DNA of 64,000 nucleotides from Algiphilus aromaticivorans DG1253 (GTDB lineage: Bacteria; Pseudomonadota; Gammaproteobacteria; Nevskiales; Nevskiaceae): positions 3,172,501 to 3,236,500 of the forward strand of contig NZ_JPOG01000001.1 in the NCBI RefSeq assembly GCF_000733765.1, in the 5' to 3' direction. Under the pieces are notes generated by a model that did not search any database, had not been told where the DNA came from, and was given only the letters and a program-made list of their open reading frames with translations. This document shows, in pieces, positions 5,160-63,764 of this stretch. Within the stretch, counting starts at the first letter, position 1. Each line of letters begins with the position of its first letter. Position numbers and translations under genes: made by a program.

Positions 5160-5576
5160 ATGCTCTGGCTGAAAGCTCTGCACCTGATCTTCATGGTCAC
5201 CTGGTTCGCTGGGCTGTTTTATCTGCCGAGGATCTACGTCTATCTCGTTGAGCGTCAGGGCGAAGCGCTGCACGAAACGCTGCAGATCATGGCGCAGCGC
5301 CTCTACGCCATCATGACCATCGGCATGGTGGCGACCTGGGTCTTCGGCATCGCGCTGCTGGTCTGGAACCCCGGCTATCTGTCGCTGGGCTGGCTGCATG
5401 TCAAACTGACGCTGGTGGTCGCGCTGTCCGGCTACCACGGCTGGCTGAAAGTACAGCTCAAGCGCTTCGCAGCCGGCACCCAGAACCACAGCGGCCGCTT
5501 CTGGCGTCTCGCCAACGAAGTGCCTGCCGTGGCGCTGGTCGCGATCGTGCTGCTGGCCGTTCTGCGCCCCTTCTAG
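5160..5576 (+). CDS. hemJ: HemJ-type protoporphyrinogen IX oxidase
   Basis: Four-helix membrane enzyme for the penultimate heme step in bacteria lacking HemY/HemG. 138 residues with helices near 3-20, 50-70, 78-95 and 120-137. The conserved N-terminal [19 protein letters not shown] includes the family His (HL) and FAGLFYLPR; a second conserved region is LHVKLTLVV...GYHGW. It sits beside bfr and bfd, giving a heme and iron neighbourhood. A GC hairpin spans its stop codon. Confidence 0.9.
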
Positions 5577-5581
5577 GGCGC
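5564..5581. terminator. GC hairpin across the hemJ stop codon
   Basis: Perfect 6-bp inverted repeat GCGCCC / GGGCGC with loop CTTCTA between the convergent hemJ and bfr genes. The stop TAG lies at the loop-stem junction. There is no T-run on either side, so intrinsic termination is uncertain; it may only pause polymerase or protect the 3' end. Confidence 0.35.
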
Positions 5582-5597
5582 GCGTCGGCGAACTGCT

Positions 5598-6062
5598 CTA
5601 CAGCTGCGACTGCAAGTAGTTCTGCAGGCCCAGCTGCTCGACCAGCCCGAGCTGCGCTTCGAGATAGTCGATGTGCTCTTCCTCGCTGTGCTGGATCTCG
5701 ACCAGCAGACGGCGCGTGACGTAGTCCTCGGCGCGCTCGCAGATGCCGATCGCCTCCTTGTACATGGGATGGGCTTCCTGCTCCAGCTTCAGGTCGCAGC
5801 GCAGGATCTCGACAACATCCTCGCCGATATAGAGCGCATCCAGGTCCTGCAGATTGGGCAAGCCTTCCAGGAAGAGGATGCGCTCGATGAGACTGTCGGC
5901 GTGCTTCATCTCGTCGATCGACTCGTCGTACTCCTTCTTCGCGAGCTTCTCGTAGCCCCAGTTCTGGAGCATGCGGTAGTGCAGGAAGTACTGGTTGACC
6001 GCGGTCAGTTCGCTCCGCAGCGCCCGATTCAGAATTTCAATGATTTGATTGTCGCCGCGCAT
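5598..6062 (-). CDS. bfr: Bacterioferritin (heme-containing iron store)
   Basis: Forms a 24-subunit shell that oxidises and stores iron. 154 residues. All ferroxidase ligands fall at the E. coli Bfr positions: Glu18, Glu51, His54, Glu94, Glu127 and His130. The heme ligand Met52 is present (DEMKHAD), so this is the heme-binding type. AAGGAG lies just before ATG 6062. The bfd gene lies upstream on the same strand across 116 bp of AT-rich DNA, consistent with a Bfr/Bfd store-and-release pair. Confidence 0.96.
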   Translation of the reverse strand: MRGDNQIIEILNRALRSELTAVNQYFLHYRMLQNWGYEKLAKKEYDESIDEMKHADSLIERILFLEGLPNLQDLDALYIGEDVVEILRCDLKLEQEAHPMYKEAIGICERAEDYVTRRLLVEIQHSEEEHIDYLEAQLGLVEQLGLQNYLQSQL

Positions 6063-6178
6063 GGCCCGACTCCTTGGTATCTGGAGCGACAGAGTAGCGG
6101 ATCAAGGCTGGCCGATCAACGCTATCTGTTTGATTTTTATATAATTTTTAAAGCTTCTGCGTGCGATTCCCAATCGCG
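6063..6178 (-). promoter_or_regulatory. AT-rich upstream region of bfr
   Basis: This 116-bp gap contains the most AT-rich stretch nearby (about 6128-6155, with TTTAAAAATTATATAAAA on the minus strand). It stands out against the GC-rich surroundings and probably holds the bfr promoter. No single -35/-10 pair is convincing, and no clear Fur-box palindrome is visible inside it. Confidence 0.45.
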
Positions 6179-6433
6179 TCAGGCGCTCTCTGCCAGCGCG
6201 GCTTGCTGCCTACCGGCCCAGCGGCGCACCACCGGCAGTAGCTCCGCTTCGGCTTCACGCTCGGCAACCGCGTCCATGACCCGACGCGCGTGTCGCAGGC
6301 AGCGACCGCAGCCGGTGCCCAGGCCCAGCTCACGCACGGCGTCGCCGAGCCTGACAACGCCATCGCTCGTTCTGGCCTCGGCCAGAGCACGTAGCTGAGC
6401 TTCCCGGACTCTCTTGCAACTGCAGACAATCAT
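6179..6433 (-). CDS. bfd: Bacterioferritin-associated ferredoxin
   Basis: [2Fe-2S] ferredoxin that docks on bacterioferritin and reduces its heme to release iron. From ATG 6433 (MIVCSCKRV, preceded by AGGAG) it is 84 residues. The four cluster cysteines are Cys4, Cys6, Cys42 and Cys45 (CSC and CGRC), four residues wider between pairs than in E. coli Bfd. A longer in-frame start at 6460 lacks a ribosome site. The tail after about residue 65 is longer than in the shortest family members. A Fur-like site lies about 45 bp upstream, fitting iron-starvation induction. Confidence 0.93.
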   Translation of the reverse strand: MIVCSCKRVREAQLRALAEARTSDGVVRLGDAVRELGLGTGCGRCLRHARRVMDAVAEREAEAELLPVVRRWAGRQQAALAESA

Positions 6434-6476
6434 GGCGGTCTCCTGATGCGTCGCCGCCATACTAACACGATTTGTT

Positions 6477-6506
6477 TTGAGAATTGTTCCTATTTGTGTT
6501 TATGAT
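6477..6506 (+). promoter_or_regulatory. Sigma-70 promoter reading away from bfd
   Basis: TTGAGA (6477-6482), an 18-bp spacer and TATGAT (6501-6506) make a good housekeeping promoter. No protein gene follows on the plus strand; the predicted start near 6513 leads into a short hairpin-rich stretch ending in a terminator. Confidence 0.7.
6478..6494. promoter_or_regulatory. Fur-box-like operator between bfd and an sRNA promoter
   Basis: TGAGAATTGTTCCTATT matches 13 of 17 bases of the palindromic site upstream of the TonB receptor in this window (from 32304) and follows the Fur pattern TGAGAAT...TTCTCA on its left half. It lies between the -35 and -10 of the plus-strand promoter at 6477-6506, so binding would block that promoter and could also control bfd. 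Confidence 0.65.
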
Positions 6507-6512
6507 AGTCCC

Positions 6513-6606
6513 GCGGTCGGGTGCTGCATCCCGGCACCCTTCCGTCGCAGCCGGTCTTGCTGCGAACGCCTCTAACTGGCGCGGTCTATCGACCGCGCCT
6601 TTTTTA
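6513..6606 (+). ncRNA. Candidate Fur-controlled small RNA, about 95 nt
   Basis: No plus-strand gene lies here, yet the stretch has a promoter, a Fur-like operator and an intrinsic terminator. Three stems are visible: GGGTGC/GCACCC (6519-6524 with 6534-6539), CGCAGC/GCTGCG (6546-6551 with 6559-6564), and the terminator stem GGCGCGGTC/GACCGCGCC (6578-6599) followed by six T. A 13-nt unpaired linker (6565-6577) is a possible seed. Size, position beside bfd and apparent Fur control resemble RyhB/PrrF-type iron sRNAs, but no sequence match to them was recognised. Function is inferred. Confidence 0.62.
6578..6605 (+). terminator. Intrinsic terminator of the candidate sRNA
   Basis: Perfect 9-bp stem GGCGCGGTC / GACCGCGCC, loop TATC, then six T (6600-6605). 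The T-run is only on the plus side, so it ends plus-strand transcription. It abuts the stop codon of the minus-strand gene that ends at 6604. Confidence 0.88.
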
Positions 6607-7233
6607 TGCGCTGCCGCCGGCCAGAGGCTCGGCGCCATGGCGCCGGCTGAGGCGCGCATCCTCGCGGTACAGGGCGCGCTCAGCCGCGCGCAGCGCCTCC
6701 CGCTCGTGCAGGGGCGGATCCCCGAAGCGCTCACGATCGCGCGGCTGTACTGCGCCCACGCGCGCGTACTGCTCGATATCCGCCAGCCGCGCGCGCTGCT
6801 TCGCCAGCGCCTCGCCTTCGGCGTGCACGCGCAGGCCGTCAGCATGCGCCTCGCGTAGCGCGTTGTGCGCTTCGGCTGGGCAAACGTTGCGCCAGGCCTC
6901 GCCCGAGCGACCGCGTGCGTACTGGGCGGCCGTTGTGCAGAAGCCCGCCAGGCCCTCGGCGTGGCCGGCGCGAAATGCCGCCCGCGCCTGCTGCACGCCT
7001 GCGTTCGAACAAGCCTCCAGATGCAGCTCGACGATGCCCAGGCGATGCCCCGCTTGGCCCTGCGCTTCGCCGAATTCCGCCCAGTCGGCCGGGCAACTCT
7101 GCGCCCCCGACTGACGGGCTTCGGGCGGGTGCGCCGCGCATCCCCCCAGCAGAAGTGCCAATGCAACCACCCCGATGCAGCGAGTGCCGGCAAGCCGCAA
7201 CACGCTCAGCCGACCAGGTGCCGGCGCGGCCAT
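6604..7233 (-). CDS. Lipoprotein, DUF2799-like
   Basis: About 209 residues from ATG 7233, or 199 from GTG 7203, which lies 3 bp past the rppH stop; neither has a clear ribosome site. A lipoprotein signal is plain: RLAGTRCIGVVALALLLGGC with the lipobox Cys near residue 32. The mature part is Ala/Arg/Glu-rich, predicted helical, with regularly spaced Cys and the FCTTAAQYARGRSG and VCPAEAHNALREAHADG segments typical of DUF2799 lipoproteins. Function unknown. It overlaps rppH if the ATG is used. Confidence 0.65.
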   Translation of the reverse strand: MAAPAPGRLSVLRLAGTRCIGVVALALLLGGCAAHPPEARQSGAQSCPADWAEFGEAQGQAGHRLGIVELHLEACSNAGVQQARAAFRAGHAEGLAGFCTTAAQYARGRSGEAWRNVCPAEAHNALREAHADGLRVHAEGEALAKQRARLADIEQYARVGAVQPRDRERFGDPPLHEREALRAAERALYREDARLSRRHGAEPLAGGSA

Positions 7234-7739
7234 TGCCGAACAGGGGCACGCCCGCCCGGCGCCTTCGGCGCGAGACCTATCATGGGCCCCAGCTCGCGCA
7301 GCGCCGCGTCGTACACCGGCCGCTTGAAGGCGACCACCTCGCGCGCGGCCTGCGCGCAGGGGACCCAACGGAAGGCGTCGAATTCCGGCCGCGGGCCGCG
7401 ATCGAAGCAGGGTTCGGCCTGCTCGTCGAGCAGGCGCAGCATGAACCACTTCTGCTTCTGGCCGATGCACTGCGGCATCCCGTCGCGAAGAAAGCGCTGC
7501 GGCAAGCGATAGTGCAGCCAGCCGCGCGTGCAGCCGACGATTTCCATCTGGCCGCGCTCGAAGCCCAGCTCCTCGTAGAGCTCGCGCCAGAGGGCGTCCT
7601 GAGGGGACTCGCCCGGGTCGATGCCACCCTGCGGAAACTGCCAGGCGTTGCGGCGGACACGCTTGCCCATGAGCAGCCGGCGGTGCGCATTCACCACCAT
7701 GATGCCCACGTTCAGGCGATAGCCTTCCGCGTCGATCAC
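7206..7739 (-). CDS. rppH: RNA pyrophosphohydrolase (Nudix)
   Basis: Removes pyrophosphate from the 5' end of mRNA and so triggers decay by RNase E. 177 residues. The Nudix box is complete at residues 38-60 (GGIDPGESPQDALWRELYEELG). The N-terminal MIDAEGYRLNVG and the WQFPQGGID segment are typical of RppH/YgdP. Divergent from the HAD phosphatase, as in Pseudomonas, where rppH also neighbours a HAD-IB gene. Confidence 0.94.
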   Translation of the reverse strand: MIDAEGYRLNVGIMVVNAHRRLLMGKRVRRNAWQFPQGGIDPGESPQDALWRELYEELGFERGQMEIVGCTRGWLHYRLPQRFLRDGMPQCIGQKQKWFMLRLLDEQAEPCFDRGPRPEFDAFRWVPCAQAAREVVAFKRPVYDAALRELGPMIGLAPKAPGGRAPVRQWPRRHLVG

Positions 7740-25317: not shown

Positions 25318-26498
25318 GCGGCTTTCGCAAGCCCTCGCTGGGGGCGCTGACCACCGCGGCGCTCGCGCTGCCGGGCCTGAGCGGCGCGCAATCCGCGCCC
25401 GGCTGGCAAACCGACTATCTCTTCAGCTTCTACAACGAAGGCGATATCTCGGGCAGTCGGACCAGCAGCGGCCAATCCAGCGAGCGCTACGAGATCCAGT
25501 CGCACAGCCTGCGCGCGGTGCGACCCGTCGGCGAGCGCAGCGTCGGTGTCGACGTCATGTACGAGACGCTCAGCGGCGCCTCGCCCTGGTACGTGCTGCC
25601 CGACGGTGAAACCGGCGAGCCCGAGCAGGTCATGAGCGGCCCGACGATTCACGAGGAACGCATCGATGTCTCGCTGTCCGGCGACACACCGATCACGCCG
25701 CAATTGTCGCTCAGCATGTCGGGCGGCATCTCGGACGAGGACGACTACCAGGCGCGCTACGGCACGGCCGAGATCGCCTACGAGCCGCCGCAGCTGCCGG
25801 CGACGCTCACCGCCAGCGTCAGTTACTCCGACGACACCCTCGACCCGACGGAGGGCGCCACGCCGGTGAGCGTGGACTCGGCCGACAAATCCTCGCTGCG
25901 CAGCACTGTCAGCGCCAGCTACGCGCTGAACCGCAATACCCTGGTGCAGGGCGCGGTCGGCTATCAGCGCCATTCCGGCTTCCTCAGCGATCCCTACAAA
26001 GCGGCGTTTATCCGGGACACCGCCAACACCGTGCCCGACGCGCGCCCGCGCGGCCGGCGCGGCGTCCACCTGCTGACGCGGCTGCGGCATTTCGTGGAGT
26101 CATTCTCCGGCGCGCTGCACGCCGACTATCGCTACTACGAGGATGACTGGGACATCCATTCCCACACCGTCGAGCTGACCTGGCACCAGACGCTGAGCGA
26201 GCGTTGGCGCATCTCGCCGGGGGTGCGCTGGTACAGCCAGAGCCAGGCCTTCTTCTACGCGCCCTTCTTCGACACCGCCCCTGATCACGGCTTTGCCTCC
26301 AGCGACTATCGCTTGTCGCCCTTCGGTGCGCTGAGCTTCCGCCTCGACGCCACCCACGCCTGGGACCGGCTCGCCGCCGGCTTCGGCGTGGAGTACTACG
26401 ACGCCAGCGGCAGCTACGCGACCGGCTCGGTGGATGTCGAGGCACCGGGGCTCGTGCGCTACACGGTGTTCACGGCACGGCTCGCCTACAGCTTCTGA
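25314..26498 (+). CDS. DUF3570 outer-membrane-like protein
   Basis: 394 residues: signal peptide (about 1-27, ending LSGAQS), then alternating beta-strand sequence with many aromatic turns and a C-terminal RLAYSF, typical of an outer-membrane barrel ending in Phe. The WQTDYLFSFYNEGDISG opening and the overall length fit DUF3570. Function unknown. It is coupled to ApbE by a TGATG overlap and follows thioredoxin and DUF4266, the recurring context of this family. Confidence 0.86.
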   Translation: MSGFRKPSLGALTTAALALPGLSGAQSAPGWQTDYLFSFYNEGDISGSRTSSGQSSERYEIQSHSLRAVRPVGERSVGVDVMYETLSGASPWYVLPDGETGEPEQVMSGPTIHEERIDVSLSGDTPITPQLSLSMSGGISDEDDYQARYGTAEIAYEPPQLPATLTASVSYSDDTLDPTEGATPVSVDSADKSSLRSTVSASYALNRNTLVQGAVGYQRHSGFLSDPYKAAFIRDTANTVPDARPRGRRGVHLLTRLRHFVESFSGALHADYRYYEDDWDIHSHTVELTWHQTLSERWRISPGVRWYSQSQAFFYAPFFDTAPDHGFASSDYRLSPFGALSFRLDATHAWDRLAAGFGVEYYDASGSYATGSVDVEAPGLVRYTVFTARLAYSF

Positions 26499-27412
26499 TG
26501 CAGCTTCACCGCCAGGCCTTCAGGGCCATGGCCAGCCCCTGCGAGCTGCGCGTCTACGCCCAGCGCGCGTCACAGGCGCAGCATGCAATGTCGGCGGCCG
26601 AAGCCGAGGTGCGGCGCATAGAGGCCAAGTACTCGCGCTATCGCGAGGACAGCGTGGTGTCGCGCATCAACGCCGCGGCCGGCAGCGGCACGGCCGTGGA
26701 AGTCGACACGGAAACCACCGGGCTGCTCGACTACGCCGCCACCGTGCACGCCGAGAGCGAGGGGCTGTTCGACATCACTTCCGGCGTGCTGCGCCGGGTC
26801 TGGGATTTCCGCAGCAGTCGGCTGCCCGAGCCCGGCGCCGTCGAGGCCATCCAGCCGCTGATCGGGTGGCAGCGCGTGGACTGGGTAGCGCCGCGCATCC
26901 ATCTGCCGCTGTCCGGCATGCAGCTGGACTTCGGCGGCTTCGGCAAGGAATACGCCGTCGACCGTGCCGCCACGATACTGCTGGAGATGGGCGTCGGCAG
27001 CGGCATTGTCGATCTGGGTGGCGACATCCGCGTGCTGGGCCCGCACCCGGACGGCAGCCCCTGGCGCGTCGGCATCCGCAACCCGAATGCGCCCGAGCGT
27101 GCCGTCGTGGCGGTGCACCTGGCGGGCGGGGCGATCGCCACCAGCGGCGATTACGAGCGCGCCTTTCTGCTCGACGGCAGGCGTTACTCGCATCTGCTCG
27201 ATCCGCGCAGCGGCTGGCCGATCGCGGGCAGCCCCGCCAGCGCCAGCGTGCTGGCGGACCGCTGCCTGATCGCAGGCAGCGCCGCCACCGTCGCCATGCT
27301 CAACGGTGAGCGGGCGGCCGAATGGCTGCGCGCACTCGGGCTGCCGTGGCTGACGGTGAGCCACGATCTCGCCATCGATGGCGATGCCGTGCACCCCGCA
27401 CCTGCAGGGTAG
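26498..27412 (+). CDS. apbE: ApbE family FAD:protein FMN transferase
   Basis: 304 residues. ApbE enzymes attach FMN to Thr/Ser of target proteins or process FAD. Motifs: FGGFGKEYAVDRAA, VDLGGDIRVLGPH, TSGDYERAF and YSHLLDPRSGWPI. No signal peptide or lipobox is visible: the catalytic fold starts directly at MQLHRQAFRAMASPCELRV, so it looks cytoplasmic, unlike the usual periplasmic lipoprotein form. No clear flavinylation target (DxxSGA[ST]-type) is seen in neighbouring proteins. Confidence 0.88.
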   Translation: MQLHRQAFRAMASPCELRVYAQRASQAQHAMSAAEAEVRRIEAKYSRYREDSVVSRINAAAGSGTAVEVDTETTGLLDYAATVHAESEGLFDITSGVLRRVWDFRSSRLPEPGAVEAIQPLIGWQRVDWVAPRIHLPLSGMQLDFGGFGKEYAVDRAATILLEMGVGSGIVDLGGDIRVLGPHPDGSPWRVGIRNPNAPERAVVAVHLAGGAIATSGDYERAFLLDGRRYSHLLDPRSGWPIAGSPASASVLADRCLIAGSAATVAMLNGERAAEWLRALGLPWLTVSHDLAIDGDAVHPAPAG

Positions 27413-27432
27413 ACAAAAAATTACATTTGTCT
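27411..27432. promoter_or_regulatory. AT-rich palindrome before the cytochrome gene
   Basis: Perfect inverted repeat AGACAAA / TTTGTCT with an 8-bp AT-rich centre, overlapping the apbE stop and 34 bp before the cytochrome ATG. The spacing and AT content suit a repressor operator. Its half-sites resemble those in the promoter of the TetR gene at 23791. Confidence 0.5.
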
Positions 27433-27465
27433 GATACTCCATCAGCACCTAATGGAGACTAGGGC

Positions 27466-29928
27466 ATGATTACGAGAATTCGCATTGCCGCCGCGCTGGC
27501 CGCGGCCCTCGGTTTCGCCGCATGCAGCGGCGAGTACAGCGGCGGCCCCGCCGGCGGTGACGGCAACGGAGGTGATGGGGGTGGCGACACAACACCGCGC
27601 TCGATGGAAAGCTTCTACGAGCAGCGCGTGAGCCAGACATTGAGTTTCTGCCAGACCTGTCACATCCCCGGCGGCCTCGGCGACGTCACAGACGGCGAAG
27701 ACTTCATGCTCAACACCGACGGCCCCCCGGAGTTGGCAGCGCTGCGTTCGAGCTGGGAGCGCCTCGGCGGCAACGACCCGGTCTCGCGCATCCTGCTGAT
27801 GGCCTCCGGGCAGGAGAAGCCGCACGGCGGCGGTGCAGTCTGGCCGCAGGCCAGCGCGAGCTACGCCAACGTCGCGATCATCCTGCAATGCTTCGCGCAA
27901 CCGGACACCTGCCCGGATCTTCTGGGCAGCGGCAGTGACGCGGACGAGGACGATCTGCCGCTGCTAGGCAGCAAGCACGCCGCGCACCGCTGGGCGAGCT
28001 ACTGCAGCGAGCGGCCCGACGACGCCCCACTGCCACCGGACCCCCGCTCGCTGATACAGCCGGGTGCCAACCCCGACCGCGCCGTCTTTTTCAATGCCCA
28101 TTGGGAGAACTGCCACGCAGAGCTACCCGAGGAGAAGCAGCAAGCACAGACCTGCGGCGAGTACCGTGCAATGCGCGACAAGGGCCTGGACTTCCTGAAG
28201 AACAAACTGCCCATGGCGGCGATGTCGGCCGAGGAACTCAACAATAGCTGGCAGACCTGGGGCTTCGACGAACGGCCGGAGAACTTCGACGAGATCTACC
28301 GGCTGCGTTACGGCCTCAACCGCGCCCCCTTCGACAACCCCTACCCGCTACCGGGAGAGGATCCGAACGCCACCGATGGCGGCAGCGGCCAGCTGCCACT
28401 GGGACTGCGCCAGCTGCGCGACGACGACGGCAACTGGAGCGGGGAGATCGGCACCGCCGCCTGCTTCCAGTGCCACGGTGGCAACATCGGCGGGGACGGT
28501 GAGAACCCGCTGGGGCTGGACAACCTCGGGCTCGGCAACAGCAACTATGACGTGCTGCAGGACGCCCAGGACAGCGCGCTCTGGGCCGGCACGCCCTTCG
28601 CAGAGGCGCTGCCGACGCTCGACGTCAACAGCCTGTTCAACATCGGGATCAAGCAGCGCGGGCAGAATAACGCCGTGGGCGCCTTCGAAATCCTGATCAC
28701 GGTGCTCGACCTCGATTCGCTCGGGCTCAACCCGAACCCGCTGAAGACCGTGGTCGGTCAGAGCGGCCTGGCGGACATCGCGCATCCGCTGTCGCACACC
28801 CAGGACACACCACCCTGGTGGAACCTCGGCTCGCGACCGCGCAAGTTCTTCGACGCCGGCGTATCGGCCGACAGCACGCGCATCATCATGGCCGCCGGCC
28901 CCGGTGAGTTCAACGAACTGGTCAGCGCCGACGGCAAGGCCTATCGCGACCGCATCGCCGAATACGATCAGGCACTGGAAGCCTTCTTCCTGTCGCTGGA
29001 GTCACCCGAATACCCGGGCGAAATCGACGAGGCCCTGGCCCGCCAGGGCGCCGTCCTCTTCCACGGCCTCGATCTGTGGTCGAGGCCCGGCAACGACGAC
29101 CATCCGGAGCCGCTGGGCGGCAACGGCTCCTGCGCCAGCTGCCACGGCGCCTATTCGCCGCGCTACGTGCACGACGACAGCTATCTGGAGGACCCGGTCC
29201 TGGAAGGCGTCGCCGGCCACATTTCGCCGCTGGAGGTCATCGATACCGACCACGCGCGCTCGGACATGCTGACGCCCACCCTGCGCGAGCGCTGGGATAC
29301 CACCTACTGGGCCTTCCCCGAGGGCAGCGAGAACTACATCCCGCCCGAGGAGAAGTCGGCCGCGCTGGAAGCCGTCGACGACATGTACCCGACTGCACAG
29401 CGCCCGGACGGGGCCTGCGGCTGGGAGAAAGGCGTGATCGGCTACCAGGCGCCACCGCTCTACGGCATCTGGGCCACGGCGCCCTACTTCCACAACGGCT
29501 CGGTGCCCACCGTCGAGCAAGTGCTGGATTCCTCGCAGCGACCGGCCATCTGGCAGCGCAGGCTGCGCGAGGAAGGCCCCGTCAAGGGCTTCGACCTGCG
29601 CATGGAGACAGCCTACGATTGGCAGCGCCTGGGGTGGAAACACGACGTGCTGAGCTGCACCGACATCCCGGGCAATAACCTCTACAACTGCAACTTCTTC
29701 GACGAAGAGGGCCCATCGCTGATCCAGCTGACCGAGAATCTTCTCAACAACGCGGTGGGCCTGACCGGACTGCTGCCGCTGTCGGATCTGCTGGCGGTCG
29801 GCGCCTTCGACAAGCGCCTGGTCTACGACAGCCGCATCCTGGGCAATGGCACGGGCGGCCACACCTTCACCGACGTGCTGAGCGAGCAGGAGCGCCGTGC
29901 GGTCATCGAATATCTGAAGACGCTGTAG
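27466..29928 (+). CDS. Multiheme c-type cytochrome lipoprotein, RoxA-like
   Basis: 820 residues. Lipoprotein signal with lipobox FAAC (Cys20), a Gly/Asp-rich linker (about 22-45), then three CXXCH motifs: CQTCH 62-66, CFQCH 333-337 and CASCH 556-560. The last two domains resemble the di-heme RoxA/RoxB rubber-oxygenase and cytochrome-peroxidase superfamily (GYQAPPLYGIWATAPYFHNGSVPT near 660). The N-terminal third heme is extra. The substrate is not known; oxygenase, peroxidase or simple electron carrier are all possible. Translated after the palindrome at 27411. Confidence 0.82.
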   Translation: MITRIRIAAALAAALGFAACSGEYSGGPAGGDGNGGDGGGDTTPRSMESFYEQRVSQTLSFCQTCHIPGGLGDVTDGEDFMLNTDGPPELAALRSSWERLGGNDPVSRILLMASGQEKPHGGGAVWPQASASYANVAIILQCFAQPDTCPDLLGSGSDADEDDLPLLGSKHAAHRWASYCSERPDDAPLPPDPRSLIQPGANPDRAVFFNAHWENCHAELPEEKQQAQTCGEYRAMRDKGLDFLKNKLPMAAMSAEELNNSWQTWGFDERPENFDEIYRLRYGLNRAPFDNPYPLPGEDPNATDGGSGQLPLGLRQLRDDDGNWSGEIGTAACFQCHGGNIGGDGENPLGLDNLGLGNSNYDVLQDAQDSALWAGTPFAEALPTLDVNSLFNIGIKQRGQNNAVGAFEILITVLDLDSLGLNPNPLKTVVGQSGLADIAHPLSHTQDTPPWWNLGSRPRKFFDAGVSADSTRIIMAAGPGEFNELVSADGKAYRDRIAEYDQALEAFFLSLESPEYPGEIDEALARQGAVLFHGLDLWSRPGNDDHPEPLGGNGSCASCHGAYSPRYVHDDSYLEDPVLEGVAGHISPLEVIDTDHARSDMLTPTLRERWDTTYWAFPEGSENYIPPEEKSAALEAVDDMYPTAQRPDGACGWEKGVIGYQAPPLYGIWATAPYFHNGSVPTVEQVLDSSQRPAIWQRRLREEGPVKGFDLRMETAYDWQRLGWKHDVLSCTDIPGNNLYNCNFFDEEGPSLIQLTENLLNNAVGLTGLLPLSDLLAVGAFDKRLVYDSRILGNGTGGHTFTDVLSEQERRAVIEYLKTL

Positions 29929-30022: not shown

Positions 30023-32239
30023 TCAGAATCGCGCGCGCAGACTCACCGTGGCGGAACGCGGAGCGCCGTAGAAATTCTGGCGGCTGGGCGACGACACCTT
30101 CTCGTAGTACTTCTTGTCGAGCAGGTTCTCGACGACGAGGTTGAGCGCCAGATTCTCGTTCAGGTGGTATCCGAGGCGCGCATTGAGCAGGGTGTAATCA
30201 CCGGAAATGATGCGCCGGTCCTCGTCGCCGGCGAGAAAGGAGGACGCGGAGAAGAACTCGCTGCGATAAGTCGCGCCCGCCCCAACATCCCATCGCGGCA
30301 GACCGATACCGGCGAGATCGTAGCGGGTGAACAGCGTGACCAAGTGTCGCGGCGTGACGGGGCTGAAGATCTCGCCCTGCTGCTCCGGCGGAGCGCGCTT
30401 GAACTCGGTATCAGTGTAGGCGTAGCCGACGACGAGATCCCAGTGCGTGGTGGCGGCACCGCGCAGCTCCAGCTCGAAGCCCTGGCTTTCCACCTCGCCC
30501 CGGGCCACCGAGACCTCGGGATTGTCCAGGTCGGATACCGCACGATTGTCGTCCAGCAGACGGAAGACCGCCGCCTGGGCGAGCAAGCGTTTCTCCAGCA
30601 GCTCGGCCTTGACGCCCAGCTCGACCTGTTCGCCGGTACGTGGCGGCAGGAGCTCGCCCTGCGCGTTGCGGGCGGTCTGCACGACGAAGGTTTCGGCGTA
30701 GCTCGCGTAGGGCGAGATACTGTCGTTGATGTCGTAGATCAGCGCGTAGTTCGGGATGAACTGCCTGCCCGGCTCGCTGCGAGCCGAGATCGATCCATCG
30801 TCGAGCTGCCGCGTACGGACTTCGTTCCAGCTGAGACGACCGCCGGCCAGGACGCGCAAGCGCTGCGTCGCGCGCAGCTGGACCTGGCCGTATAGCGCGT
30901 CCTCTTCGCGCTCGGTGATGCTCTGATAGCCGGGCAAATCGAGGTTCGGGAAGGGAACCCCGTAGTCCGGCTCGAAGATATTGAAATCCAGGTTCTCGCC
31001 AACAGCGAAATTGCCGCCGGTGTTGTCGCCCTCGAAATGGCTGGCGCCGAGCGTGAAGCGGTGCTGCCGGTTCCACAGCAGCACCTGATCCGTATAGAAG
31101 AGATCGTATTTACGGTCCGCGCCCTCCTGGGCGAAGTCCACGGGCTGCAGCTCGGTGTCGCCATCGGCGCTGGCCGGTGTGGCCGAGCGCGCGGCGCGAT
31201 AGAACATTTCGCGATAGACGTCGCGGGCGGAGAACTTGATATAACCGCTGCCTCCGAAGCTGTGCTCCAGCTCCACGAAGCTGTCGCGGAATTCCAGATC
31301 CTGCCGGTTGTCGCTCAGGCCGGCGAAGGTCGAGCGCGGCAGATCGATGAGCGTGCCGTCGGCAAAGGTCGGCAGCCCCTGGTCGAGAACGGACTCGACC
31401 TGCTGGCGGGCAAAGCCAAGGGACAAGGTGGTCTGCGGCAACAGGTCGTATTCCAGCGTGCCGTAGCCCACCGTCTTGTCGGTCCCCAGCTCCGCAACGA
31501 AACTCTCGCGCTGATCCTGCACAGCGACGACGCGGCCACGAAGACGCCCGCCCTCGCTGAGCGGGCCGGTGAGGTCCGCAGTCAGGCGCCGCATATTGTC
31601 CGAGCCCAGCATGAAGCGCGTCTGCAGCGCCTGCTCGCCGCGCGCGCGCTTGCGAGCGAGGTTGATCGTCCCGCCTGGCTCGCTCGCGCCCTGCAGGAAA
31701 CCGGCGGGGCCGCGCAGCACCTCGATGCGGTCGTAGAGAGCCGTATCGAGCGCCGTGGAGTAGTTGCCGCCCTGCACGAGCGGGATGCCATCCAGCTGGA
31801 TGGCGCCAATCTCGAAGCCCCGCGAGCGGATCACATTGAAGTTGCCGGCGCCGTCGAAGCGTTCCACCACCAGGCCCGTGACCTGCTTGGAGATATCCTC
31901 GAGCTTCGTGATGTTGCGATCGTCCAGCTCCTGGCGCGTGACGACGCTGATCGACTGCGGGATATCGCGCAGCGAATCCGCGCCCTTGCCGAGCGTCACG
32001 GCAGCAGAAGCGTAAGCGTTTACGCTCTCGGTCGATTCCGACCGGCCGCGGACGGTCATCGGCGCCAGCTCGGCGCTGTCATCCGCGGGGGCGCCACTAT
32101 TCGCGCTCGCTACATCCTCGTCGCCTTGCGCCAAGGCCGAGGCTGTGCCGAGCGTCAAGGACAGCAAGGCGGCCACCTGCATGGCACGCGCGCAGGCTTT
32201 TAGCCGCGCGATGTGCGGCGATTCTTCAACAAGATGCAT
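30023..32239 (-). CDS. TonB-dependent siderophore receptor (FpvA/FhuE-like)
   Basis: 738 residues from ATG 32239, chosen over an upstream in-frame ATG (32269) because AGGGAG lies 6 bp before it. Signal region to about ALAQGDE, then a TonB-box/plug (PMTVRGRSESTESVN; SLRDIPQSISVVTRQ; VIRSRGFEIGAIQLDG; LRGPAGFLQGASEPGG) and a 22-strand-type barrel ending in VSLRARF (terminal Phe). The plug sequence is that of ferric-siderophore receptors. A Fur box lies about 65 bp upstream. No siderophore synthesis genes are in the window. Confidence 0.94.
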   Translation of the reverse strand: MHLVEESPHIARLKACARAMQVAALLSLTLGTASALAQGDEDVASANSGAPADDSAELAPMTVRGRSESTESVNAYASAAVTLGKGADSLRDIPQSISVVTRQELDDRNITKLEDISKQVTGLVVERFDGAGNFNVIRSRGFEIGAIQLDGIPLVQGGNYSTALDTALYDRIEVLRGPAGFLQGASEPGGTINLARKRARGEQALQTRFMLGSDNMRRLTADLTGPLSEGGRLRGRVVAVQDQRESFVAELGTDKTVGYGTLEYDLLPQTTLSLGFARQQVESVLDQGLPTFADGTLIDLPRSTFAGLSDNRQDLEFRDSFVELEHSFGGSGYIKFSARDVYREMFYRAARSATPASADGDTELQPVDFAQEGADRKYDLFYTDQVLLWNRQHRFTLGASHFEGDNTGGNFAVGENLDFNIFEPDYGVPFPNLDLPGYQSITEREEDALYGQVQLRATQRLRVLAGGRLSWNEVRTRQLDDGSISARSEPGRQFIPNYALIYDINDSISPYASYAETFVVQTARNAQGELLPPRTGEQVELGVKAELLEKRLLAQAAVFRLLDDNRAVSDLDNPEVSVARGEVESQGFELELRGAATTHWDLVVGYAYTDTEFKRAPPEQQGEIFSPVTPRHLVTLFTRYDLAGIGLPRWDVGAGATYRSEFFSASSFLAGDEDRRIISGDYTLLNARLGYHLNENLALNLVVENLLDKKYYEKVSSPSRQNFYGAPRSATVSLRARF

Positions 32240-32300
32240 GCAAGGCTCCCTGTCGTGAACGGCGCGCATGCATGGACAAGCATCACGCGAACACGAGTAT

Positions 32301-32321
32301 TAATGCGAATTGTTCGCATAA
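32301..32321 (-). promoter_or_regulatory. Fur box upstream of the TonB receptor
   Basis: TAATGCGAATTGTTCGCATA contains the perfect palindrome ATGCGAA-TTG-TTCGCAT (32303-32319), close to proteobacterial Fur sites. It lies about 65 bp upstream of the receptor ATG, in an AT-rich stretch suited to a promoter. The remaining gap to 32523 shows no gene. Confidence 0.78.
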
Positions 32322-34935: not shown

Positions 34936-35285
34936 CCGCAGATTTCGCAGATTGACGCAGATTCCTGGCTTTGATCACGCGATGTCGCGAAGCGACGAGC
35001 CAGACCGGATCCGTGCCCTTTGAGGGCGGCCGAGGCGGGCGTCGCGCGCAGGCGTCGCTCGGCACGGACGCCGAGCGAGCGCGATCAGGCCAGGGATGGC
35101 CTGTTCGCGCGTGCGCCGAGCACGTCGCCCGGCTCGGGAACCTGCCGCAACGCAGTTGCGGCAGGCCGCCCGGCGGGCACCATGGCTTTGGTTACTTTGG
35201 CCGAAACCAAAGTAACCCGCGCCAAGCGCAAGGCGACAATCGGTAGCGCCAATGTCATAGGGCGCGGAAACGCGTGCATCAAGGG
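34936..35285. repeat. Mosaic palindromic intergenic repeat, copy B
   Basis: Fills most of the gap 34846-35318, which has no convincing gene. It shares left end CCGCAGATTTCGCA (34936-34949), middle block (34977-35025, ending GTGCCCTTTGAGG) and right end (GCGCCAA...AGGGCGCGGAA, about 35245-35270) with copy A at 9957. Internal palindromes: 34984-34996, 35055-35078, CAGGCC/GGCCTG with centre AGGGAT (35086-35103), CCTGCCGCAA/TTGCGGCAGG (35141-35165), and GGTTACTTTGG/CCAAAGTAACC (35190-35217). This copy is shorter, with mostly different palindromes inside. Confidence 0.75.
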
Positions 35286-63316: not shown

Positions 63317-63756
63317 GCTATCGAAACAGTGCCGTCGCACTTCTGCTGCTGACCGCGACCCCGGCCGCCATGCCCCACGGCGCCGGCTACGAGCGCGAAC
63401 CGGAAGCACCGGCCGAAGTCTTGCGCTTCCGCTACGCCGCCGGGGGCGCCATGGACGGGGTGCAGGTGCAGGTATCGCGCCCGGAAGACGGCGGGCTGTT
63501 CCAGGTCGGGCGCACGGACCCGGCCGGTCGCTTCGCCTTCGTGCCGGACGAAACGGGCGAGTGGACAGTGACAGCCGACGACGGCCAGGGCCATCAGTTG
63601 CAGGCGCGCATCGCGGTGGGCGCGGCGACGCAGCAGGAGGCAGCGCAGCGCGTGATGATCCCGCCGCTGGCGCTGCTCGGAGCATTGATCCTCAGCCTGC
63701 TCGTCAACGCCGGGCTGTTCTCGGCCTGGCGCGCACAAAAAAAGCCCCGCCACTAG
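63313..63756 (+). CDS. Small membrane-anchored accessory protein of the HupE operon
   Basis: 147 residues from GTG 63313, overlapping the HupE stop (GTGA). Signal peptide (about 1-20), a periplasmic beta domain like those of carboxypeptidase-regulatory or NikL/NikM-type proteins (GGAMDGVQVQVSRPEDGGLFQVGRTDPAGRFAFVPDETGEWTVTADD) and one C-terminal membrane helix (about 118-138). Perhaps a metal-binding partner of the HupE-like protein. Its last codons form part of a terminator that works for the opposite strand. Confidence 0.75.
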   Translation: MSYRNSAVALLLLTATPAAMPHGAGYEREPEAPAEVLRFRYAAGGAMDGVQVQVSRPEDGGLFQVGRTDPAGRFAFVPDETGEWTVTADDGQGHQLQARIAVGAATQQEAAQRVMIPPLALLGALILSLLVNAGLFSAWRAQKKPRH

Positions 63757-63764
63757 GGCGGGGC
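63737..63764 (-). terminator. Intrinsic terminator for minus-strand transcription
   Basis: Perfect 8-bp stem GCCCCGCC / GGCGGGGC, loop ACTAG, followed on the minus strand by seven T (A-run 63737-63743). It should end the transcript of the minus-strand gene at the right edge. The stop codon of the plus-strand accessory gene (63754-63756) lies in the loop, and the A-run encodes its Lys residues. Confidence 0.85.

Follow-up and report, generated by a model that had tools for sequence, protein, structure and literature searches.

The locus lies in a window of 64,000 nt (C1:3172501-3236500) of the genome of the marine bacterium Algiphilus aromaticivorans DG1253, referred to as G000. The minus strand carries an rppH-like NUDIX gene and a DUF2799 gene, followed by the iron-storage pair bfd and bfr, and hemJ (UPF0093) runs on the plus strand, ending 0.9 kb upstream of the locus. 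Domain matches agree with the names bfd, bfr and hemJ that the first-pass annotation gave to the iron- and heme-related neighbors. No plus-strand gene was recognized between hemJ and the terminator described below, where a short RNA divergent from bfd is predicted. Elsewhere in the window, 26498-29928 (plus strand) holds an ApbE-family gene and, after it, a gene whose 820-amino-acid product matches RoxA-like cytochrome c. The features of the locus are as follows.

5598 to 6062, minus strand: bfr, bacterioferritin-like (Pfam Ferritin, 8.3e-35).
6179 to 6433, minus strand: bfd, bacterioferritin-associated ferredoxin, the divergent neighbor (Pfam Fer2_BFD, 2.6e-08; query 6179-6436).
6476 to 6494, no strand assigned: Fur-box-like palindrome TTTGAGAATTGTTCCTATT, overlapping the -35 element and spacer of the predicted sRNA promoter and lying upstream of bfd on the opposite strand.
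6477 to 6506, plus strand: sigma-70 promoter with -35 TTGAGA, 18-nt spacer and -10 TATGAT (10/12 matches).
6513 to 6605, plus strand: predicted sRNA of about 93 nt, its start placed 6 to 8 nt past the -10 element and its end at the U-run; sister locus L003:1500-1607, minus strand.
6514 to 6565, plus strand: stem-loops 1 and 2 of the 5' body, predicted in the window and not conserved.
6564 to 6577, plus strand: conserved, mostly unpaired tract GAACGCCUCUAACU, the likely pairing region, with GCCUCU at 6568-6573.
6578 to 6605, plus strand: intrinsic terminator GGCGCGGTC-TATC-GACCGCGCC-TTTTTT, with a 9-bp stem (8 GC pairs), a 4-nt loop and U6.
6604 to 7200, minus strand: DUF2799 gene, start uncertain (Pfam DUF2799, 1.4e-17; ORF end at 6604).

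The promoter had already been proposed in the first-pass annotation, and it holds up as the sole promoter-like match in the 2 kb from 5500 to 7500 (mean of 0.2 in shuffled sequences). The strong terminator that the same annotation described is likewise present. A loose terminator scan found one match, with 1.4 expected by chance. In a stricter scan of the 64 kb, 6578-6605 was one of two among nine matches to have 8 GC pairs, which places it among the two strongest in the window; five block-shuffled copies gave 5 to 10 matches each under the same scan, a comparison of counts and not of strength. The window's other very strong terminator (63744-63764, minus strand; 8 GC pairs, T7) lies near the window end.

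A Fur-like site had been placed within the promoter, and several lines of evidence agree with it. The palindrome scores 13/19 against a palindromic Fur consensus, a score reached by two sites in the 64 kb, and its counterpart in the sister species scores 14/19 against the same consensus. With the E. coli-type consensus GATAATGATAATCATTATC, 6476-6494 does not stand out within the 64 kb. We also compiled bfd loci of other genera: 53 of the 85 genomes sampled across the order had a Bfd match, and the 28 other-genus loci with sequence represent ten genera. A Fur box was found at the corresponding bfd position in 22 of the 28 by the regular expression used to collect boxes for a Fur matrix; the other six (L037, L039, L041, L042, L046 and L051) did not enter the matrix, and five of them carry AATGATAATGATTGTCAAT by eye. 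By genus, the box is present in eight according to the regular expression and in two more by eye. The matrix itself, built from 16 distinct bfd Fur boxes, all from other genera, ranks 6476-6494 fourth of 127,964 positions, at 13.9 bits, which is below every one of the training boxes (25 to 38 bits).

A Fur-type pattern was then searched genome-wide with at most one mismatch, using the reversed pattern as a control. It occurs at 10 sites in G000 (13 strand matches; control, 1) and at 8 sites in the sister genome G001 (11 strand matches; control, 0), the locus included in both. Of the nine other G000 sites, five precede TonB receptor genes (four sites, three genes) or a solute-binding protein gene, as do three of the seven others in G001 (two at one TonB receptor gene, one at a solute-binding protein gene). 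Of the remaining four in G000, one precedes a PepSY_TM frame, two fall within genes (at the start of a heme-protein gene and in a LemA gene) and one is next to a transposase-like gene; no evident iron gene accompanies the remaining four in G001. The first of these G000 sites is 390 nt ahead of the frame with the PepSY-associated TM domain (L148:1890-3017; G000 C1:1569430 region). Within the window, a near-perfect palindromic Fur-type box (AATGCGAATTGTTCGCATA, 32302-32320) precedes a TonB-dependent receptor gene (30023-32269, minus strand). Both genomes encode Fur (152 bits in G000, 153 bits in G001) and Hfq (105 and 104 bits). Since the Fur-type pattern also marks TonB receptor and solute-binding protein genes of the genome, Fur control of the locus is likely.

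G001, an Algiphilus metagenome-assembled genome (91% complete), is the only congener in the order-wide sample of 85 genomes. The gene order DUF2799, RNA, bfd is the same there, and the counterpart promoter reads GTGAGA-18-TACAAT (9/12). Identities were taken from one G000/G001 alignment of about 2.6 kb. The promoter and Fur region (6469-6506) is identical at 33 of 38 positions, and the last 46 nt, comprising the unpaired GAACGCCUCUA(A)CU tract and the terminator, at 42 of 46. Within that block, 6560-6577 matches at 16/18 and the terminator (6578-6605) at 26/28, one A-U pair of the stem being G-U in G001. The 5' body (6507-6559; 27/53), bfd (152/258) and DUF2799 (317/590) are all at 51 to 59%, and the stretch between bfd and the promoter is at 16/32. 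With 33/38 and 42/46 against 152/258 and 317/590, the two ends of the RNA are better kept than both adjacent genes. High identity is not unique to the RNA: 142 of 2,606 windows of 46 nt, a count that includes the 3' block, equal or surpass that block in score, 434 of 2,614 windows of 38 nt match or exceed the promoter region, and the best-conserved windows of the aligned region are in rppH (385/534 overall) and bfr (383/465). The bfr-bfd gap is identical at 70 of 116 positions.

The predicted structure is kept in part. In the window, the RNA (6513-6606) folds at -49.9 kcal/mol (z = -5.9), and z is still -3.3 for 6513-6572, from which the terminator has been removed. The G001 RNA without its terminator has a z of 0.05 and lacks stem-loops 1 and 2, and as a whole it folds little better than shuffled sequences (z = -0.7 to -1.2). 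For one choice of start in G001, the best fold swaps the terminator hairpin for long-range pairing; two other lengths keep the hairpin. Of the three stem-loops predicted for the window RNA, the terminator alone persists in G001. The first-pass annotation took conservation of stems and terminator in close relatives as the mark of a genuine RNA, and half of this is seen, because the terminator is kept in G001 and stem-loops 1 and 2 are not. The segment before the terminator is mostly single stranded in both species: the mean unpaired probability of GAACGCCTCTA (tract GAACGCCUCUA) is 0.84 in G000 and 0.76 in G001, where the best fold used lacks the terminator hairpin.

Beyond the two Algiphilus species, the arrangement was not recovered. 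A scan of 350 nt of the strand opposite to bfd finds a promoter together with a terminator at both Algiphilus loci and at none of the 28 loci from other genera. Among the latter, a terminator occurs once (L034), by eye belonging to the next gene, and a promoter three times (L041, L043 and L047), two of these preceding TonB receptor genes. At L041 and L047, which belong to two other genera, bfd and a TonB receptor gene (Pfam Plug) diverge from either side of this Fur box; its two-way use is therefore not peculiar to Algiphilus.

Sequence searches gave a similarly narrow range. A DNA search of 61 genomes with 6470-6612 returned one convincing relative, G001; the strongest of the other short matches, in G004 and G015, are on contigs other than those of their bfd genes. 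The pattern GAACGCCTCTAN{0,2}CTGGCG, run against 369 genomes of the class (G001 not among them), matched G000 and G372. In a collection of 84,980 species, a Bfd protein search found no match, and an 18-base pattern matched 37 stretches. L090, one of these, corresponds to the locus in G001; the remaining 36 come for the most part from distant taxa and were presumed, as a group, to be chance matches. The covariance model R1, weak because it is built on two sequences, retrieved G000, G001 and a 21-bit match in G012 from the 85 order genomes under strict filters. We rejected the G012 match because the half corresponding to the promoter overlaps the opposite-strand start of a biotin carboxylase gene, the terminator has a different stem and the conserved tract is missing. 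A match at L055 (17 bits, 52 nt) was disregarded. The covariance search suggested earlier for related genomes therefore found G001 and, with this two-sequence model, no convincing relative beyond it among the 85; the RNA locus is found in two genomes only.

The RNA also lies outside every sequence family tested and is new in sequence. None of the families in Rfam 15 scores above its threshold at the locus, in agreement with the earlier remark that no sequence match to RyhB or PrrF could be seen. PrrF (RF00444) reaches 17.1 bits against a gathering threshold of 90 and has no match in either genome at E ≤ 1; the 13 matches listed at E ≤ 10 do not include RyhB. The best E-value (0.024) belongs to ncS025 (RF02869), Burkholderia sRNA 25, at 23.6 bits against a gathering threshold of 46; its terminator stem is similar, and the resemblance is mainly confined to the terminator. 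Elsewhere in the window, an Rfam TwoAYGGAY RNA (RF01731) was matched at 35052-35116 (plus strand; 48.9 bits against a gathering threshold of 43; E, 6.5e-05), spanning only model positions 45-113 of 168.

PrrF and RyhB are short intergenic RNAs that end in an intrinsic terminator and act with Hfq. The candidate resembles them in its short, apparently noncoding unit, the Fur-type site in its own putative promoter, its predicted intrinsic terminator and the presence of hfq in the genome; it differs from them in gene neighborhood and in the lack of a sequence or covariance match. In PMC7377471, PrrF1 and PrrF2 of Pseudomonas and RyhB of enterobacteria are described with a Fur site directly before the sRNA. 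BrrF (ncS63) of Burkholderia cenocepacia is presented there as a low-iron sRNA that is dissimilar in sequence to known Fur-regulated sRNAs, not found outside its order and cut from the 3' end of hemP mRNA, with no Fur box directly upstream and with sdhC and sodB among its predicted targets (PMC7377471). The candidate shares with BrrF the lack of similarity to known families, the narrow range and sdhC as a possible target, but appears to have its own Fur-box promoter, divergent from bfd. RusT of Caulobacter crescentus, an alphaproteobacterial 118-nt intergenic RNA, is induced by iron starvation, bound by Hfq and pairs via a conserved tract; it is controlled by NtrYX and not by Fur, and membrane proteins form its largest target class (PMC11005374). 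The candidate is like RusT an intergenic RNA with a conserved tract and unlike it in having a Fur-type site. A limited literature search found neither a Fur-controlled sRNA from Nevskiales nor this RNA by title, and among the Algiphilus papers listed no title deals with an sRNA.

The conserved tract was compared with the start regions of possible targets. Its GCCUCU is complementary to AGAGGC, a hexamer that in both genomes begins nine bases upstream of the main sdhC start codon. AGAGGC falls within 20 bases of 1 of 116 other starts in G000 and 0 of 65 in G001; the starts counted come from the loci retrieved, after a filter on codon-position G+C, and are not a whole-genome sample. Because seven G000 genes and three G001 genes were tested, the sdhC hint stands at the few-per-cent level, and the sdhC sites of the two genomes do not count as independent. 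The seed-duplex energy of the main sdhC is not better than that of shuffled targets (60% and 23%); the second sdhC copy of G000 beats them weakly (9%). Duplex energies show nothing for bfr, hemJ, bfd (start 3 nt off) or the window's TonB receptor in G000 (19 to 64%). For sodB of G001, an internal ATG stands at 1.7% and the likely start at 6.3%, and G000 shows nothing comparable (57%). The target prediction proposed earlier for bfr, sdh and sod mRNAs thus leaves AGAGGC at the sdhC ribosome-binding site, nothing for bfr and nothing common to both genomes for sodB. As to sdh gene content, G000 has two sdhC/sdhD-type pairs, L137 (C1:2076274) and L139 (C1:1092838), one of which was found in G001; AGAGGC is at the ribosome-binding site only in the sdhC copy shared with G001.

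Genome-wide, complements of the tract with at most one mismatch show no enrichment: G000 has 20 such places and G001 has 17, and the reversed control gives 34 and 31. The contexts of 15 of the 20 and 15 of the 17 places, the locus included, revealed no shared gene. A 13-nt exact complement of the tract lies at L101:1500-1512 (G000 C1:277783-277795), 34 nt past the called GTG start of a RES-domain gene; G001 has no exact 13-nt complement outside the sRNA locus. The RES-domain complement is possibly a chance match or a species-specific target.

Several readings of the locus were weighed. We consider it reasonably probable, on the features of the DNA, that it specifies a noncoding RNA of about 93 nt with its own Fur-repressed promoter, a terminator and a pairing tract. 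The main rival to a Fur-repressed sRNA, which we hold to be improbable, is that the bfd Fur box merely serves a two-way promoter and the terminator acts as an insulator, halting antisense transcription into DUF2799 and rppH, with an RNA that has no target. In position, the terminator coincides exactly with the DUF2799 stop codon, which overlaps the end of the U-run, and without a stop the predicted sRNA would read antisense into DUF2799. A 5' body free to diverge, a fold that is not kept and the lack of an established target also fit insulation. However, the tract before the terminator is conserved nearly as well as the terminator itself, which insulation does not need, and 27 of the 28 other-genus bfd loci have no such terminator within 350 nt, although a Fur box can be made out by eye in nearly all of the 28.

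It is less probable still that the hairpin (6578-6599) forms the minus-strand 3' end of the DUF2799 mRNA and that the plus-strand promoter arose by chance. The hairpin does lie within about 10 nt of the DUF2799 stop codon in both species, but in neither genome does a minus-strand U-run follow it, and the plus-strand T6 is present in both. That the plus strand encodes a small protein is very improbable. In both species a frame crosses the conserved block without a stop, with two offsetting single-base indels and weakly similar C-terminal residues. Against this, the terminator stem is itself part of the conserved block, and the transcript (6513-6605) contains no ATG-started ORF of at least 20 amino acids: the GTG frame from 6521 reads through the terminator (197 codons), and the other listed frames begin upstream of the predicted transcript start (TTG 6477, TTG 6484 and a 41-amino-acid GTG frame in G001). 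The first-pass description of a unit of about 95 nt without a plus-strand protein gene is in line with these frames.

The preferred reading is therefore that of a Fur-repressed sRNA. The iron-responsive RNA divergent from bfd that had been proposed keeps its promoter, Fur-type site and terminator in G001, in genomes that both carry fur and hfq; the one hint of a RyhB/PrrF-like function is the 6-nt complementarity to sdhC. Taken together, the locus probably specifies a genus-specific, Fur-repressed, RyhB/PrrF-like sRNA of new sequence. From these elements we infer transcription, binding of Fur and Hfq, and targets. In iron-replete cells, Fur-Fe at 6476-6494 would block the sRNA and probably also bfd on the opposite strand, and iron shortage would release both. 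The RNA would end at the intrinsic terminator, whose U tail would suit Hfq, and the single-stranded tract beside it may pair with the ribosome-binding sites of iron-protein mRNAs, sdhC being the best candidate.

A more specific scenario, which we put forward tentatively and regard as doubtful, is that a RyhB/PrrF analogue was born within one genus when an old bfd Fur box gained an outward promoter and a terminator. The 14-nt unpaired tract would be its only conserved active part, blocking the sdhC ribosome-binding site, and the 5' body would drift freely. If this is true, a single Fur box would jointly switch the release of bacterioferritin iron (through bfd) and the sparing of iron (through the sRNA). 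It seems that sRNAs under Fur control have emerged on several occasions with no sequence in common, and since ten other genera keep the bfd Fur box but show no such RNA, this locus may show the birth of an iron sRNA.
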